From contig JAPPJZ010000031.1 in the NCBI GenBank assembly GCA_028874365.1, positions 9,596 through 44,082 on the forward strand: DNA of 34,487 nucleotides, written 5' to 3'. The notes under the pieces were generated by a model. That model saw only the letters and a program-made list of their open reading frames with translations, did not search any database and had not been told where the DNA came from. Both the position numbers and the translations under genes were made by a program. Source of the stretch: Chloroflexota bacterium. Its GTDB lineage: Bacteria > Chloroflexota > Dehalococcoidia > Bin125. How positions within the stretch are numbered: the first letter of the stretch is position 1; each line of letters starts with the position of its first letter. This document shows positions 7,054 through 12,155 of this stretch, piece after piece.

Positions 7054-7533
7054 TCACAGTGGCAACTCGAATCGTGATTCGGGATTGATCAGCGGCGCGA
7101 GTGCGCCGATCGCGCTGAGGAACGAGAGCGCCGCCTCGTTGTTGTCCGGCACCGAACCGACGATGCGACGGAAATCCTGTTCACGGGCGTGCGAGAGCAG
7201 GTATTCGGCCAGCACCGTTCCGATTCCGCGGCGCCGCCACTCCGATCGCATCCAAACGCCCAGCGTCGCCGTTTCCGGTTGGCGAGTGTTGTAGTCGAGC
7301 GCGCCGAATCCGATCACCGCTCCGTCCTCCACGGCCACGTAGATTGCGCCGCTGTCGCCCAGCCGACGCCGCCACATCGAGACCTCGTCCTCGTTCCAGG
7401 GTCGGTCGAAGACGACTGGATTTGGCCCTTCGACCACATCGCGGATCACATCTGCGATCTCGGCCGCGTCGTCCTCGGTAGCCAATCGATAGTCGGGCTC
7501 GAAGCCGTCGCCGGGGGCGGTGGAAAGCGTCAT
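7054..7533 (-). CDS. GNAT-family N-acetyltransferase
   Basis: A 159-aa single GNAT domain. The acetyl-CoA pyrophosphate loop is RRRGIGT (about residues 100-106), preceded by the strand TLGVWM and the AYVAVEDG-type beta hairpin; the C-terminal VPDNNEAALSFLSAIG matches the family's motif B. The substrate is unknown. The gene lies between carA and carB, with its ATG one base after the carA TGA, so it is translated with the pyr operon. Being embedded between the two halves of carbamoyl-phosphate synthase is unusual; the sequence gives no direct evidence for a pyrimidine role. Confidence 0.88.
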   Translation of the reverse strand: MTLSTAPGDGFEPDYRLATEDDAAEIADVIRDVVEGPNPVVFDRPWNEDEVSMWRRRLGDSGAIYVAVEDGAVIGFGALDYNTRQPETATLGVWMRSEWRRRGIGTVLAEYLLSHAREQDFRRIVGSVPDNNEAALSFLSAIGALAPLINPESRFELPL

Positions 7534-7534
7534 G

Positions 7535-8665
7535 TCAATCTCCCTGAACGCCGCTGACCGATTCGATCAGGTCGAGGAAGCGGTCGAAGAGGTGTCCGTT
7601 GTCCAGTGGACCGGGTGATGCCTCTGCGTGGTATTGAATCGAAAACACCGGCTCACTGCGATGCGACAATCCCTCGACAGTCTGGTCGTGCAGGTTGATG
7701 TGCGTGACCTCGACATCGGAATGCAGTCCGTCGGGATCGACGGCGTAGCCGTGATTCTGCGCGGTGATGGCGATCCGTCCGGTTGGAACCTCGAGCACCG
7801 GATGGTTGCCGCCGCGGTGTCCGAACTTGAGCTTGAACGTCTCCGCGCCGAACGCGCGGCCCAGCACCTGGTGCCCCATGCAGATCCCCATCATCGGCAA
7901 TTTCCCGATCAACGCGGTGGCCGTCTGCACTTGCAGTTCCCTGAGCTGAGGATCGCCGGGACCCGGCGACAACAGCACGCCATGTGGGTTGACCGAAAGG
8001 ATGTCTTCGACGCTCGCCGACGGCGGCATCGCCGTCACGCGGCAACCGCGGCGTCGCAGGTTTCGCAGGATGTTGTACTTCAAGCCTTCGTCGAGTACGA
8101 CGACGTGCGGGCCCGGCTCCTCGCCGCCGTTCAACAGCGCATGCGGCCTGCCGTCTCGCCAGCTATAGGGCTCCGCTACGCCGACATCGATGAAGTCCTG
8201 TGTGTCGTAGTCGGGTACCTCTGCGAGTTGGCGCTTCGCCGCATCGACCTCGGACGACGGAACGATCATCCCCATCATGACACCCGTATGCCGGATGCGG
8301 CGGGTGATCGCCCGTGTGTCGATACCGGCAATCCCGGGAATCCCAGCGGCCGCAAGGTAGTCGTGCAGCCGCATCCCGCCGCGCGGATGAGACGGCGAGT
8401 CGCACTCCGAGCGCACCACGAGACCGCGTACCTGGATCTGGCGGGATTCGTCGATTGGCGGATCGATGCCGTAGTTGCCGATCAGCGGGTAGGTCAGCAC
8501 GAGGATCTGACCGGCGTAGGAAGGGTCTGTCAGCATTTCCTGGTAGCCGGTCATCGAGGTGTTGAAGACGACCTCGCCCCACGTGTCGGTCGCGGCGCCC
8601 AGCACTGTGCCGCGGAACACGGCTCCGTCGGCCAGGACCAGCGCCGCCTCCAGATGTTCGGACAT
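7535..8665 (-). CDS. carA: Carbamoyl-phosphate synthase small chain (glutamine amidotransferase)
   Basis: A 376-aa subunit that hydrolyses glutamine and channels ammonia to CarB. The N-terminal CPSase small-chain domain carries EVVFNTSMTGYQEMLTDPSY, and the C-terminal class I amidotransferase domain has the oxyanion strand LLSPGPGDP, the nucleophile motif GICMGHQ and the His/Glu pair in QYHAEASPGP. The ATG at 8663-8665 is chosen over an open upstream extension because it gives the conserved N-terminus and shares one base with the pyrC stop (TAATG), a typical coupling arrangement. Confidence 0.97.
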   Translation of the reverse strand: MSEHLEAALVLADGAVFRGTVLGAATDTWGEVVFNTSMTGYQEMLTDPSYAGQILVLTYPLIGNYGIDPPIDESRQIQVRGLVVRSECDSPSHPRGGMRLHDYLAAAGIPGIAGIDTRAITRRIRHTGVMMGMIVPSSEVDAAKRQLAEVPDYDTQDFIDVGVAEPYSWRDGRPHALLNGGEEPGPHVVVLDEGLKYNILRNLRRRGCRVTAMPPSASVEDILSVNPHGVLLSPGPGDPQLRELQVQTATALIGKLPMMGICMGHQVLGRAFGAETFKLKFGHRGGNHPVLEVPTGRIAITAQNHGYAVDPDGLHSDVEVTHINLHDQTVEGLSHRSEPVFSIQYHAEASPGPLDNGHLFDRFLDLIESVSGVQGD

Positions 8666-9984
8666 TACTGCTCCCGACCGTCCCAGACGAAGCGTCCCTG
8701 TGAAATCGTCAGCGCGACAACGCCGGTCAACGTGTGCCCCGCGAGGGGTGTGTTCTTGCCCATCGACGCCCACGACTCTGGCTCAACGCGGGTGGCCGCG
8801 TCGGTCGACAGCAGCGTCAGGTCAGCCGGAGCGCCGACCTGCAGCGTGCCCAAGCCGCGCAACTCGCCCTGGTCCAGGTTCCATGCGCGTACCGGACCGA
8901 TTGTCAGCCGCTCGATTGCGTCAGCCAACGACAGGCGACCGGCCTCGACCAGCGAGTTCACCACGCCCCAGGCCGACTCGAGGCCCGAGATGCCAAAGGC
9001 CGCCGCGTCGAATTCGCATTGCTTGTCTACGGTCGCATGCGGCGCGTGGTCGGTCGCGACGGCATCAACGACGCCGGCAGCCAGTGCGTCGATGCACGCC
9101 TGGACGTCGGCTTCAGTCCGCAACGGCGGATTGACCTTGGCATTGGTGTCGTAGCGCAAGTCTTCGCTACTACCGGCGACGACGTCGTGGGTCAGCCAGA
9201 GGTGGTGAGGAGTAACCTCCGCCGTCACGTGCAGCCCGCGCGCCCGCGCGTCGGCGATCGCGTGCAGCGACGGCTCGGTCGAGATGTGGCAGGCGTGGAA
9301 TTGCGCGCCCGACGCTTCAGCAAGCGCGATATCGCGCTGGACGATCGACAGTTCGGCGGCAGCAGGTTGGCCACGCAGTCCCAGGCGTGCCGACACCGCG
9401 CCGTCGTGCATGACGCCACCCTGCGCGATCGCCGGGTCCTCGCAATGCTCCGCCAGTGGAATGCCGATATCTGAGAGATACTCAAACGCCTGGCGAGCGA
9501 GCGAGTTGTCCGCGACCGCGTCGCCGTCATCCGAGACCGCAACTGCCCCAGCCGCTCGGAGGGCATCGAGCTCTGTCAGCTCCTGTCCCTTGCGACCCTT
9601 ACTCACGGCGCCGATCGGCAAGACGCGGCAATCGGCGTCCTCCGCGCGCTGCAAAATGCCGTCGATGATTGCCGCCGTGTCCATCGCCGGCTCGGTGTTC
9701 GGCATGGCGCAAATCGTCGTGAACCCGCCGCGTGCCGCCGCCCGCCCGCCGGATTCGATGGTCTCCTTATGTTCCTGCCCCGGCTCTCGCAAATGCGTGT
9801 GCAGATCGACGAAGCCAGGCGACACAATCAGTCCTGACGCCGCGACGCGTCGGGCGCCGTGTGGCGACGAAACGTCCGCGCCAACCTCCGCTATCCGGCC
9901 ATCGACAATCAGCACGTCCAAACGGTCGTCGAGGCCCGAGGAGGGGTCGATCACGCGGCCGCCGTAGACCAGGATGCTGGTCAT
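8665..9984 (-). CDS. pyrC: Dihydroorotase
   Basis: A 439-aa amidohydrolase that cyclises N-carbamoyl-L-aspartate to dihydroorotate. The zinc ligands His62 and His64 and the substrate Arg66 are in DLHTHLREPG; MPNTEPA (99-105) binds substrate; and the metal/catalytic Asp lies in ATDHAPHA. The VSDDGD segment matches the bridging-Asp position of Bacillus-type (class I) dihydroorotases, as opposed to the shorter E. coli type. The start overlaps the pyrB stop as ATGA, and the stop overlaps the carA ATG. Confidence 0.96.
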   Translation of the reverse strand: MTSILVYGGRVIDPSSGLDDRLDVLIVDGRIAEVGADVSSPHGARRVAASGLIVSPGFVDLHTHLREPGQEHKETIESGGRAAARGGFTTICAMPNTEPAMDTAAIIDGILQRAEDADCRVLPIGAVSKGRKGQELTELDALRAAGAVAVSDDGDAVADNSLARQAFEYLSDIGIPLAEHCEDPAIAQGGVMHDGAVSARLGLRGQPAAAELSIVQRDIALAEASGAQFHACHISTEPSLHAIADARARGLHVTAEVTPHHLWLTHDVVAGSSEDLRYDTNAKVNPPLRTEADVQACIDALAAGVVDAVATDHAPHATVDKQCEFDAAAFGISGLESAWGVVNSLVEAGRLSLADAIERLTIGPVRAWNLDQGELRGLGTLQVGAPADLTLLSTDAATRVEPESWASMGKNTPLAGHTLTGVVALTISQGRFVWDGREQ

Positions 9985-11039
9985 GCGCCGCCTCGAATCA
10001 ACAGGAACAGAATCGCCATCCGAACTGCCAATCCAGCCGAGACCTGCGCCTCGATTCGACTTTGCGGGCTGTGCGCCACATTGACCGCGATCTCGACGCC
10101 TTCGTTCATCGGACCCGGGTGCATCACGATCGCTTCGGACGACGCCTCCGCGATGCGTTCAGTAGTGAGCTGGTAGCGGCGCGCGTATTCAGCGGACGAG
10201 GGCAACAGTCTGCCTCGCAGGCGTTCGTTCTGGATCCGTAGCGCCATCACTGCGTCCGCACCGACGATCGCCCGGTCCAGGTCCGACTCGATCTGGACGG
10301 CGGGAAGCGCCAGCGGGTGTTCTCGCTCGGAAGCACGGTTGCTGAGCGCGGAGGGCAGCAATGGGCGCGGAGCGACCAGCGTGACTTCTGCGCCGAGCGT
10401 CGTCAACGACCAGAGATTCGAGCGCGCCACGCGCGAATGCAGAATGTCGCCGACGATGACCACCTTGCGGCCGGAGAGGTCGCCGAACTCCTTGATCAGC
10501 ACGTAGGCGTCGAGCAGCGCCTGGGTCGGATGCGCATGCTGACCGTCGCCGGCGTTGACGATGTGACCATCAATCGTCCTGGCTGCCAGCCAGGGAGCGC
10601 CCGAGGCGTGGTGACGCATGACGACCGCGTCGGCGCCCACCGCCGAGAGCGTATTCAGGGTCTCAACCAGCGACTCACCCTTCTCGACGGACGAGCCTGA
10701 ACCGGACACGTTGATCACGTCGGCACCAAGAATCTTGCCGGCCAGCTCGAACGACGACCGCGTCCTCGTCGACGCCTCATAGAAGAGATTGAAGATCGTA
10801 ACCCCACGCAGCGCCGGCGTCCGTGCCACGTTGCGCTGCAGCACCTCCGCCATTGCGTCCGCCGTGCTCAGGATGCGCATGATCTCGGCTTCGGAGAGCA
10901 CATCGACATCCAGCAGGTGCCGATGTCGCCAGTCCGTGACCGGCTCGACCAGCGGCGTCCGCGCGCCAGCATCCGTTCGTTCATTGCTGTCTGGCGGCGA
11001 TGGTGAGGCTTCCGCGTTGGCGACGGGTTCAGTGACCAC
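9981..11039 (-). CDS. pyrB: Aspartate carbamoyltransferase catalytic chain
   Basis: Transfers the carbamoyl group to aspartate. The carbamoyl-phosphate loop STRTRSSFE is at residues 90-98, HPTQALLDA starts near 170, and MHPGPMNEGVEI gives the C-terminal aspartate-binding loop. The GTG at 11037-11039 is chosen; it overlaps the pyrR 3' end by 11 bases and gives 352 aa. That leaves about 35 poorly structured, Ser/Pro/Glu-rich residues ahead of the usual start at RHLLDVD, so a later start is possible. The frame stays open 25 codons further upstream, inside pyrR. No pyrI or inactive pyrC partner is present. Confidence 0.95.
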   Translation of the reverse strand: MVTEPVANAEASPSPPDSNERTDAGARTPLVEPVTDWRHRHLLDVDVLSEAEIMRILSTADAMAEVLQRNVARTPALRGVTIFNLFYEASTRTRSSFELAGKILGADVINVSGSGSSVEKGESLVETLNTLSAVGADAVVMRHHASGAPWLAARTIDGHIVNAGDGQHAHPTQALLDAYVLIKEFGDLSGRKVVIVGDILHSRVARSNLWSLTTLGAEVTLVAPRPLLPSALSNRASEREHPLALPAVQIESDLDRAIVGADAVMALRIQNERLRGRLLPSSAEYARRYQLTTERIAEASSEAIVMHPGPMNEGVEIAVNVAHSPQSRIEAQVSAGLAVRMAILFLLIRGGA

Positions 11040-11571
11040 GTGACAGCCTTTCGACAAAGATGCCGACGCAGTCCTCGCCGTCGGACTCCGCCAGTGAGAC
11101 GCGGACGTCGTCACCTCGCTGCGTGGGGATGTTCTTGCCGACGTAGTCGGCGCGGATCGGCAACTCGCGATGGCCGCGGTCGATCAGCACGGCCAGCTCA
11201 ATCACGGCCGGTCGTCCGTAGTGGATGAGCGCGTCAAGCGCGGCGCGGATCGAGCGTCCCGTGTAAAGCACGTCATCGACCAGCACAATGACCGCTCCAT
11301 CAATGTCTTCGGGGATCCGCGATGGCTGCATTCGCGCATGCGGCCGTTGAGCCAGATCGTCGCGATACAGCGAGATGTCGATCGCGCCAACCGCAATTCG
11401 GCGACCGTCGATGCCTTCGATCCTCACTGCGAGCCGTTCGGCAAGGGGGACGCCCCGCGTACGCATGCCGACCAGCATCAGACGCTCGGGATCGGGGTGG
11501 CGTTCGACGATTTCATGGGCAATCCGCGTGACGGCCCGATTCATCGCTGCCGCGTCCATCGAGGTCAGCAC
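11029..11571 (-). CDS. pyrR: PyrR: pyr operon RNA-binding regulator / uracil phosphoribosyltransferase
   Basis: A 180-aa type I phosphoribosyltransferase. The PRPP loop VIVLVDDVLYTGR is at residues 95-107, with DISLYRDDL and the VGKNIPT segment typical of PyrR. In other bacteria it binds pyr leader RNA when charged with UMP or UTP and represses the operon; many members also have uracil phosphoribosyltransferase activity. The GTG start is supported by GGAGG with a 7-base spacer and by the overlap with the leader-ORF stop. A matching RNA hairpin lies upstream at 11670-11710, so it probably controls its own operon. Confidence 0.96.
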   Translation of the reverse strand: MLTSMDAAAMNRAVTRIAHEIVERHPDPERLMLVGMRTRGVPLAERLAVRIEGIDGRRIAVGAIDISLYRDDLAQRPHARMQPSRIPEDIDGAVIVLVDDVLYTGRSIRAALDALIHYGRPAVIELAVLIDRGHRELPIRADYVGKNIPTQRGDDVRVSLAESDGEDCVGIFVERLSRGH

Positions 11572-11666
11572 GAGCCGGCCTCCAGATACAAAAGAACCAG
11601 CGACTTGCGCTGGTTCTGCAGCTGGTGCCCGCGTACGTCCAGAGTGGGATAGGGCTTCAGCGTCAT
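11565..11666 (-). CDS. 33-codon pyr leader peptide ORF
   Basis: A short ORF from ATG 11664-11666 to TGA 11565-11567, beginning MTLKPYPTLDVRG and ending LYLEAGSC. An AAGG lies 8 bases before the ATG, inside the 3' strand of the PyrR-binding hairpin. The ORF runs straight through the terminator-like hairpin (11590-11617) and its stop overlaps the first codons of pyrR. This is the layout expected for coupled transcription-translation attenuation: translation of the leader would mask the terminator and deliver ribosomes to pyrR. The peptide sequence itself is not recognised. Confidence 0.6.
   Translation of the reverse strand: MTLKPYPTLDVRGHQLQNQRKSLVLLYLEAGSC
11579..11583 (-). promoter_or_regulatory. 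Shine-Dalgarno of pyrR
   Basis: A GGAGG seven bases before the GTG at 11571, inside the leader ORF. It fixes the pyrR start and is only 7 bases downstream of the terminator-like U-rich tract. Confidence 0.8.
11590..11617 (-). terminator. Intrinsic terminator / attenuator before pyrR
   Basis: A perfect 10-bp stem AGAACCAGCG / CGCTGGTTCT with loop CAAGT, followed on the minus strand by TTT and a further TGT. It stands between the PyrR-binding hairpin and the pyrR Shine-Dalgarno, where a pyr attenuator is expected. The U-tract is short (the last stem base plus three Ts), so termination may be partial or condition-dependent. Confidence 0.75.
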
Positions 11667-11669
11667 CTT

Positions 11670-11710
11670 GTTGACCTTGCCGGCCTCACAGGACCGAGTT
11701 AAAGCTCAAC
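11670..11710 (-). promoter_or_regulatory. PyrR-binding RNA hairpin in the pyr leader
   Basis: On the minus strand GGTCCTGTGAGGCC (11682-11695) matches the PyrR-binding consensus ARUCCNGNGAGGYU. It folds as an upper stem CGGTC/GGCCG closing the hexaloop CTGTGA, then an asymmetric internal loop, then a lower stem GTTGAGCTT (11702-11710) with AAGGTCAAC (11670-11678) that has one G-G mismatch. The lower stem contains the AAGG likely used as ribosome-binding site for the leader ORF, so PyrR binding would be expected to block leader translation. This fits the family rule in sequence and predicted structure; binding itself is inferred. Confidence 0.88.
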
Positions 11711-11806
11711 TGGCGTTGCACCGAGCTTACAGCGCCGGGTTCTGCCCAACTATCACCCGCGATACCATCCCACGTGTTCCACCGTCCGGCTGTGGATCGG
11801 GGATTG

Positions 11807-12010
11807 TCAGACCTCGTCCTCGGCGCGGCGCTGCAGGTCGGGCGGCAGCAGGTTGGGAATCCCGTCCTCGATCGGATAGCGGAAATTGATTCGCTCGGAT
11901 ACCAGTGCGCCTTCGAGCACGTTGCCGTTCTCGTCTTCCCGCGTGACCTCCAGTTTGAGCGGATCGCGGGTCACCGGGCAGACCAGCTGGTCGACCAGTT
12001 CTCGTCTCAT
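11807..12010 (-). CDS. Trm112 family protein
   Basis: A 67-aa protein of the Trm112/UPF0434 (YcaR-like) family: the start MRRELVDQLVCPVTRDPL matches the family's CPxC..PL knuckle, followed by a strand pair and the diagnostic YPIEDGIPNLLP. The usual second Cys of the CPxC pair is Thr here, so zinc binding is probably lost. Eukaryotic and archaeal relatives activate methyltransferases; the role in bacteria is unclear. The ATG at 12008-12010 is chosen over a long upstream extension that has no family similarity and runs into the divergent biotin gene. It is 236 bases upstream of pyrR on the same strand. Confidence 0.85.
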   Translation of the reverse strand: MRRELVDQLVCPVTRDPLKLEVTREDENGNVLEGALVSERINFRYPIEDGIPNLLPPDLQRRAEDEV

Positions 12011-12155
12011 TCGCCACCCCGCATTCACCGTTGGTGCGCGTATCGAGCGCGGCGGGCATACTGCAATACTGTACGCCAACGCGTACGAATGACCATCAAG
12101 ATCCCCCGTGAAGCGAACTACACCGCACCGGGTGAAGAGAGCGGAGTTAGCAACC

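Follow-up and report, generated by a model that had tools for sequence, protein, structure and literature searches.

The pyr operon on the minus strand of the window (the whole stretch of DNA analyzed here, 34,487 nucleotides from contig JAPPJZ010000031.1 of a Chloroflexota bacterium) appears to be preceded by a leader in which PyrR gates the translation of a short open reading frame (ORF) coupled to pyrR itself, a reading to which, judging from the sequence comparisons described below, we assign a probability of roughly 0.65. RNA polymerase would make the PyrR-binding hairpin first, the lower stem of which contains the ribosome-binding site of the leader ORF. With UMP plentiful, PyrR would clamp this hairpin, the leader would stay untranslated, the terminator lying within the ORF would form, and transcription would stop; on those transcripts that escaped termination, few ribosomes would reach pyrR. 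With UMP low, PyrR would come off, the hairpin would open at a modest cost, and ribosomes would translate the leader and thereby mask the terminator; on reaching the pyrR start they would halt and begin anew, and the genes farther down are chained by the same type of overlap. The encoded peptide would be irrelevant, and the requirement would be an open frame ending on pyrR. The binding of PyrR, the translation of the leader, the masking of the terminator, and the restart at pyrR are the steps that we infer in this scheme.

If the scheme is true, an RNA-binding regulator switching a meaningless leader ORF links translational repression and transcription attenuation in a simple design, and short leader ORFs found before pyrR become interpretable. 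The original prediction had presented this as a fresh joining of two known mechanisms, a claim that has to be given up, since essentially the same model has reportedly been proposed for Thermus ZO5. For the pyr leader of that organism, Van de Casteele et al. reportedly proposed in 1997, in J Bacteriol, that the role of an antiterminator is taken by a translating ribosome. The Thermus ZO5 model comprises a PyrR hairpin, a leader ORF running through a terminator, and no antiterminator. The window agrees with it in that the ribosome-binding site ahead of the leader ORF lies in the hairpin and in that the ORF spans a terminator in the absence of an antiterminator, save for some pairing with the 3' arm of the terminator described below. 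It differs in that a whole family has kept the arrangement, which is also common in the class and persists where no terminator was found; moreover, the ORF of the Thermus leader in our comparison set (L081) passes through the terminator and runs 25 nt into pyrR, unlike the ORFs of the window's family, which end on the pyrR start. Comparisons across dozens of families would make the 1997 model testable. As far as the literature was searched, what is new here is the test by comparison, the coupling of the leader to the start of pyrR, the relatives without a terminator, and the distribution over the class; among the matches listed for PyrR leaders and for leader ORFs in general, no title or abstract beginning described such an arrangement, which is no proof of its absence in print.

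The genes on the minus strand run in the order leader ORF, pyrR, pyrB, pyrC, carA, a GNAT acetyltransferase gene, carB, and a pyrK-like gene. The identity of pyrR (11029 to 11571, GTG start) was established by NCBIfam equivalog models scoring above their cut-offs (NF003547, 236 bits, cut-off 230), and its product resembles solved PyrR proteins, including 1ufr, named pyr mRNA-binding attenuation protein (6e-56). According to curated models, pyrB lies at 9981 to 11039, pyrC at 8665 to 9984, and carA at 7535 to 8665. The leader ORF overlaps pyrR by 7 nt, pyrR overlaps pyrB by 11 nt (the likely GTG start of pyrB being a choice), pyrB overlaps pyrC by 4 nt, and pyrC overlaps carA by 1 nt; the GNAT gene (7054 to 7533) lies just behind the carA stop, between carA and carB. 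Elsewhere on the minus strand of the window, two adjoining genes (242 to 706 and 732 to 1190) encode GyrI-like small-molecule-binding proteins.

Upstream of the operon, a putative -10 element, TAAGCT, was read by eye at 11724 to 11729, and TARGCT or a similar sequence stands at the same place in relatives, as judged by eye from 19 upstream stretches; transcription probably starts near 11717. A sigma-70 promoter scan of the region found no promoter. Also by eye, a box like GTRTCGCGNGTGAYAG, at about 11746 to 11765 of the window and upstream of the putative -10 element, recurs in many leaders of the genus (L002 to L015). The predicted PyrR-binding hairpin occupies 11670 to 11710, with the hexaloop CTGTGA and, in its lower stem, the Shine-Dalgarno-like AAGG (11675 to 11678), 8 nt ahead of the ATG of the leader ORF. 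The latter, of 33 codons, runs from this ATG (11666) to a TGA (11565) through a stem of 10 perfect base pairs that, together with its U-rich tail, resembles an intrinsic terminator (11593 to 11617). The likely ribosome-binding site of pyrR, GGAGG (11579 to 11583), precedes its GTG by 7 nt. The hairpin with its hexaloop, the AAGG ahead of a short ORF, and the passage of this ORF through the stem were all found as originally predicted. An overlap of the leader TGA with the pyrR GTG had also been claimed; the two frames do overlap by 7 nt (GTGCTGA), but the TGA shares no base with the GTG.

The same layout, a leader ORF running through a terminator ahead of pyr genes, is known from E. coli pyrBI, in which the ribosome prevents termination, as is proposed for the window. 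That system works without PyrR and without a PyrR site, its signal being the UTP-dependent pausing of the polymerase. A UTP-sensitive coupling of ribosome and polymerase of this kind, with PyrR taking no part in the switch, is very unlikely for the window, because the ribosome-binding site of the leader is occupied by a conserved PyrR hairpin and the operon opens with pyrR.

The hairpin was identified with the Rfam model RF00515, which aligned over its full length to 11709 to 11588 with 37.2 bits and an E value of 0.0014 in a search of 501 bases, a score below the gathering score of 54 required for the full element. Since the full model also covers an antiterminator and a terminator, we claim only the hairpin core, that is, the GTCC-GAGGC core with a lower stem of the CCUU/AAGG type, which is present in the window. 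The AAGG is itself part of the PyrR consensus, as seen in the Rfam consensus line, and was invariant in all 56 class rows examined, so its presence alone is uninformative; what is informative is a start codon at ribosome-binding distance and its frame relation to pyrR. A consensus that includes a Shine-Dalgarno-like AAGG may explain how a PyrR hairpin could be recruited over start sites. Covariation was looked for in both stems. Across the class it was found for the hairpin, with 69 cells changed on both sides in the 56 rows, versus 39.5 after shuffling and no more than 37 when the partners were slid. Within the genus, neither the hairpin nor the terminator stem showed any, both being nearly invariant and hence uninformative. 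The folding of the leader as a whole was not unusual (z score of -1.22).

The AAGG turned out to be mostly paired in silico even without PyrR in most leaders of the genus (in the window, its four bases were unpaired with probabilities of 0.50, 0.14, 0.09, and 0.46), so the unrepressed level of expression is possibly modest. The predicted cost of opening it averaged 3.9 kcal/mol in the genus and 3.4 kcal/mol in the other leaders of the class, which is no different. Such a modest cost means that ribosomes could open the free hairpin but not a clamped one. In the genome, the hairpin of the window was the sole match of the hairpin model at an E value of at most 10, with 150 of 1,695 first-look candidates scored and with a model that includes the window sequence; the pyr operon may therefore be the only PyrR target in this genome.

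The conservation of the ORF in relatives had been set beforehand as the test on which the original prediction could fail, and the ORF passed it. pyrR was found in 19 of the 20 genomes of the window's family, which make up the whole sample of the order, and at all 19 loci the hairpin is followed by an ORF, 21 to 44 codons long, whose stop overlaps a possible pyrR start by 1, 4, or 7 nt. At one of them (L019), the ORF reaching pyrR begins at the second of two start codons that follow the hairpin; the earlier one (GTG) opens a frame of 18 codons that misses pyrR. The distance from the leader start to the pyrR start equals 2 modulo 3 at every one of the 19 loci, with spacings ranging from 62 to 134 nt, which means that the frame has been kept through insertions and deletions. 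Among the 15 loci of the genus, whose leaders align with a mean column identity of 60 percent, the ORF segment preceding the terminator showed 625, 779, and 732 differences at the three codon positions (1,688 codon pairs). No selection on amino acids was seen in this comparison, made by inspection of the counts; the similar variation of the codon positions indicates that the open frame and its end are kept and the peptide is not. The leader peptide thus does not look selected.

We also followed the arrangement through the class, where a search of 294 genomes gave a match in 282. The 130 loci examined comprised the 31 returned and 99 of the other best matches listed, hand-chosen to spread over families; 4 were dropped as having no pyrR anchor and 1 (L126, in which a variant hairpin is nevertheless visible) as failing the hairpin pattern, leaving 125, the window's family included. 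In these, 71 ATG codons stood at the 18 offsets from 8 to 25 behind the GAGGC versus 14 at the 24 offsets from 26 to 49. A start codon (ATG, GTG, or TTG) at offsets 9 to 25 was present in 106 of the 125 leaders and missing from 19. The ORF starting there ended on pyrR in 82 of the 106, versus 8 and 10 for the remaining frames; without the loci of the window's family the figures were 63 of 87, versus 7 and 10, and at least one ORF ending on pyrR was found in 31 of 40 families, versus 7 and 9. ORFs of such size are common in themselves, and shuffling the spacer with the frame relation kept gave 44.6 +- 4.0 of the 106, which is what could be said for a chance ORF in high-GC sequence; the maximum was 55, and the excess over chance comes roughly half from absent stops and half from the frame. 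The low counts in the other frames and the same frame relation at all 19 family loci have already largely contradicted this explanation, which we consider extremely improbable: as judged against relatives, other frames, and shuffles, the leader ORF is not chance. Of the 24 leaders with a start codon but no ORF ending on pyrR, 8 (L115, L130, L131, L132, L144, L148, L152, and L167) have the leader start in frame with pyrR, and there the leader and pyrR may form one longer protein, its 5' part lying across the attenuator region.

The stem within the ORF was the sole terminator-like site in the 751 bases from 11400 to 12150, in which shuffled sequences gave 0.4 on average; its perfect 10 bp (11617 to 11593) are followed by the tail TTTGTATC. 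The stem, AACCAGCG/CGCTGGTT, occurs at all 15 loci of the genus, its first A being replaced by G in two. A stricter scan scored it at 14 of the 15, the tail of L015 being too poor, and several relatives have a more regular tail (TTTTTTCG) than the window (TTCTTTTG). At the four family loci from other genera, no terminator-like site was found on either strand of the scanned stretches, and all four still have the hairpin, the ORF, and the overlap, so that within the family conservation extends further for the coupling to pyrR than for the attenuator. These loci, together with the overlap seen in 31 of the 47 class leaders in which the scan found no terminator and the chaining of the operon genes by overlaps, favor a reading in which the ORF serves to deliver ribosomes to pyrR, PyrR blocks them, and polarity does the rest, the stem being no working terminator (or Rho stopping transcription). 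We regard such translational repression with polarity only as rather unlikely for the window, because the stem is kept at 15 of 15 genus loci in an alignment of 60 percent mean column identity and is the one terminator-like site in a region where 0.4 would be expected.

PyrR in Bacillus acts by favoring the terminator over an antiterminator (PMC4347634). The window shares with the Bacillus attenuator (RF00515) the hairpin consensus and a terminator before pyrR, and the genus differs from it in the weakness of the hairpin-terminator pairing and in a leader ORF kept in frame. The mean energy of pairing between the 3' side of the hairpin and the 5' arm of the terminator was -5.5 kcal/mol in the genus, versus -14.6 kcal/mol for the terminator arms themselves (median ratio 0.37, 14 loci). 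For 64 terminator-bearing loci elsewhere in the class, many of which have a plain classical antiterminator, the corresponding means were -12.1 and -18.8 kcal/mol (ratio 0.63). In a control with shuffled arms the groups were not separated, the mean z scores being near equal (-0.70 for the genus and -0.76 for the others), so the contrast is supported by the energies alone and not by the shuffle control. When the whole upstream leader was paired with either 8-nt arm of the terminator, the energies stayed near the shuffle level at most genus loci; the exceptions concerned the 3' arm in L001 (the window), L002, L007, and L011, where the pairing was 1.7 to 2.3 kcal/mol stronger than in shuffles and weaker than the terminator.

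Apart from these 3'-arm exceptions, searches of the genus that used the 3' side of the hairpin, the hairpin as a whole, or the entire upstream leader revealed no strong antiterminator, and on average over the 14 scored loci the hairpin 3' side did not pair with the terminator 5' arm in the manner of a Bacillus-type attenuator. Classical attenuation, with the ORF as a bystander, can draw on the action of PyrR in Bacillus, on the class leaders in which a terminator was found (in 39 of these 78, the hairpin-terminator pairing amounts to 0.6 or more of the energy of the terminator), and on the partial pairing of the window's upstream leader with the 3' arm. We nevertheless consider it improbable here, since the pairing is weak in the genus and a bystander would not have retained its frame and end point at all 19 family loci. 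The weak pairing fits a ribosome that would itself act as the antiterminator. The original interpretation is partly supported; the attenuator is not the constant element, no terminator-like site having been found at the four family loci of other genera.

Sorted by the state of their attenuator, the class leaders had an ORF ending on pyrR in 20 of the 39 that could form an antiterminator (versus 3 and 6 in the other frames), in 31 of 39 with a terminator but no possible antiterminator (2 and 0), and in 31 of 47 with no terminator found by the scan (3 and 4). The expectation of more such ORFs in leaders unable to form an antiterminator (p = 0.017 with the window's family included) was rejected as evidence: with the window's family left out, the comparison became 20 of 39 versus 17 of 25 (p = 0.21), and at five other thresholds p ranged from 0.26 to 0.61.

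Beyond the class, a search of the phylum under stricter filters gave a match in 166 of 301 genomes of other Chloroflexota. Taken from the listed matches were 74 hairpin loci (14 returned and 60 fetched), of which 18 had no pyrR in the stretch, 9 failed the hairpin pattern, and 1 had no start codon, leaving 46. In these, 22 ORFs ended on pyrR, versus 7 and 5 in the other frames. We tentatively suggest, at somewhat less than even odds, that the common target of PyrR across the Chloroflexota might be the start of a pyrR-coupled leader ORF rather than an antiterminator, that this coupled ORF might be what all these leaders share, that terminators and antiterminators might be interchangeable, lost and regained, and that the window's genus might have acquired a new terminator without an antiterminator.

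A further 8 of the 46 leader starts were in frame with pyrR, and 7 of them represent hairpins lying directly on the pyrR start. In these seven (L226, L230, L236, L237, L245, L253, and L273, of families f92, f113, and f123), the hairpin stands 29 to 44 nt before the first matched pyrR codon. In Mycobacterium smegmatis, PyrR represses translation through a hairpin over the ribosome-binding site of pyrR itself, the layout seen in these three families. The window resembles M. smegmatis in having a PyrR hairpin over a ribosome-binding site and differs in that the site belongs to the leader ORF; the hairpin does not cover the pyrR site, the likely GGAGG lying outside it. The 18 hairpins with no pyrR in the stretch (L242, L246 to L248, L252, L257, L260, L276, L279, L282, L283, L287, L289, L291, L294, L298, and L299, as well as L259, where the contig breaks off) may precede genes other than pyrR.

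A comparison set of 80 named loci, mostly from Bacillota, contained 51 with the hairpin pattern and 32 with a start codon. No clear excess was found among the latter, 8 of the 32 ORFs overlapping pyrR versus 4 and 7 in the other frames; of these 8, three were from Chloroflexota and one from an Actinomycetes bin. In two Acidobacteria (L070 and L079), a PyrR-like hairpin is accompanied by ORFs of 60 and 34 codons, respectively, that reach the pyrR start, and upstream of pyrR in L074 two tandem PyrR-like cores stand before a possible short ORF.
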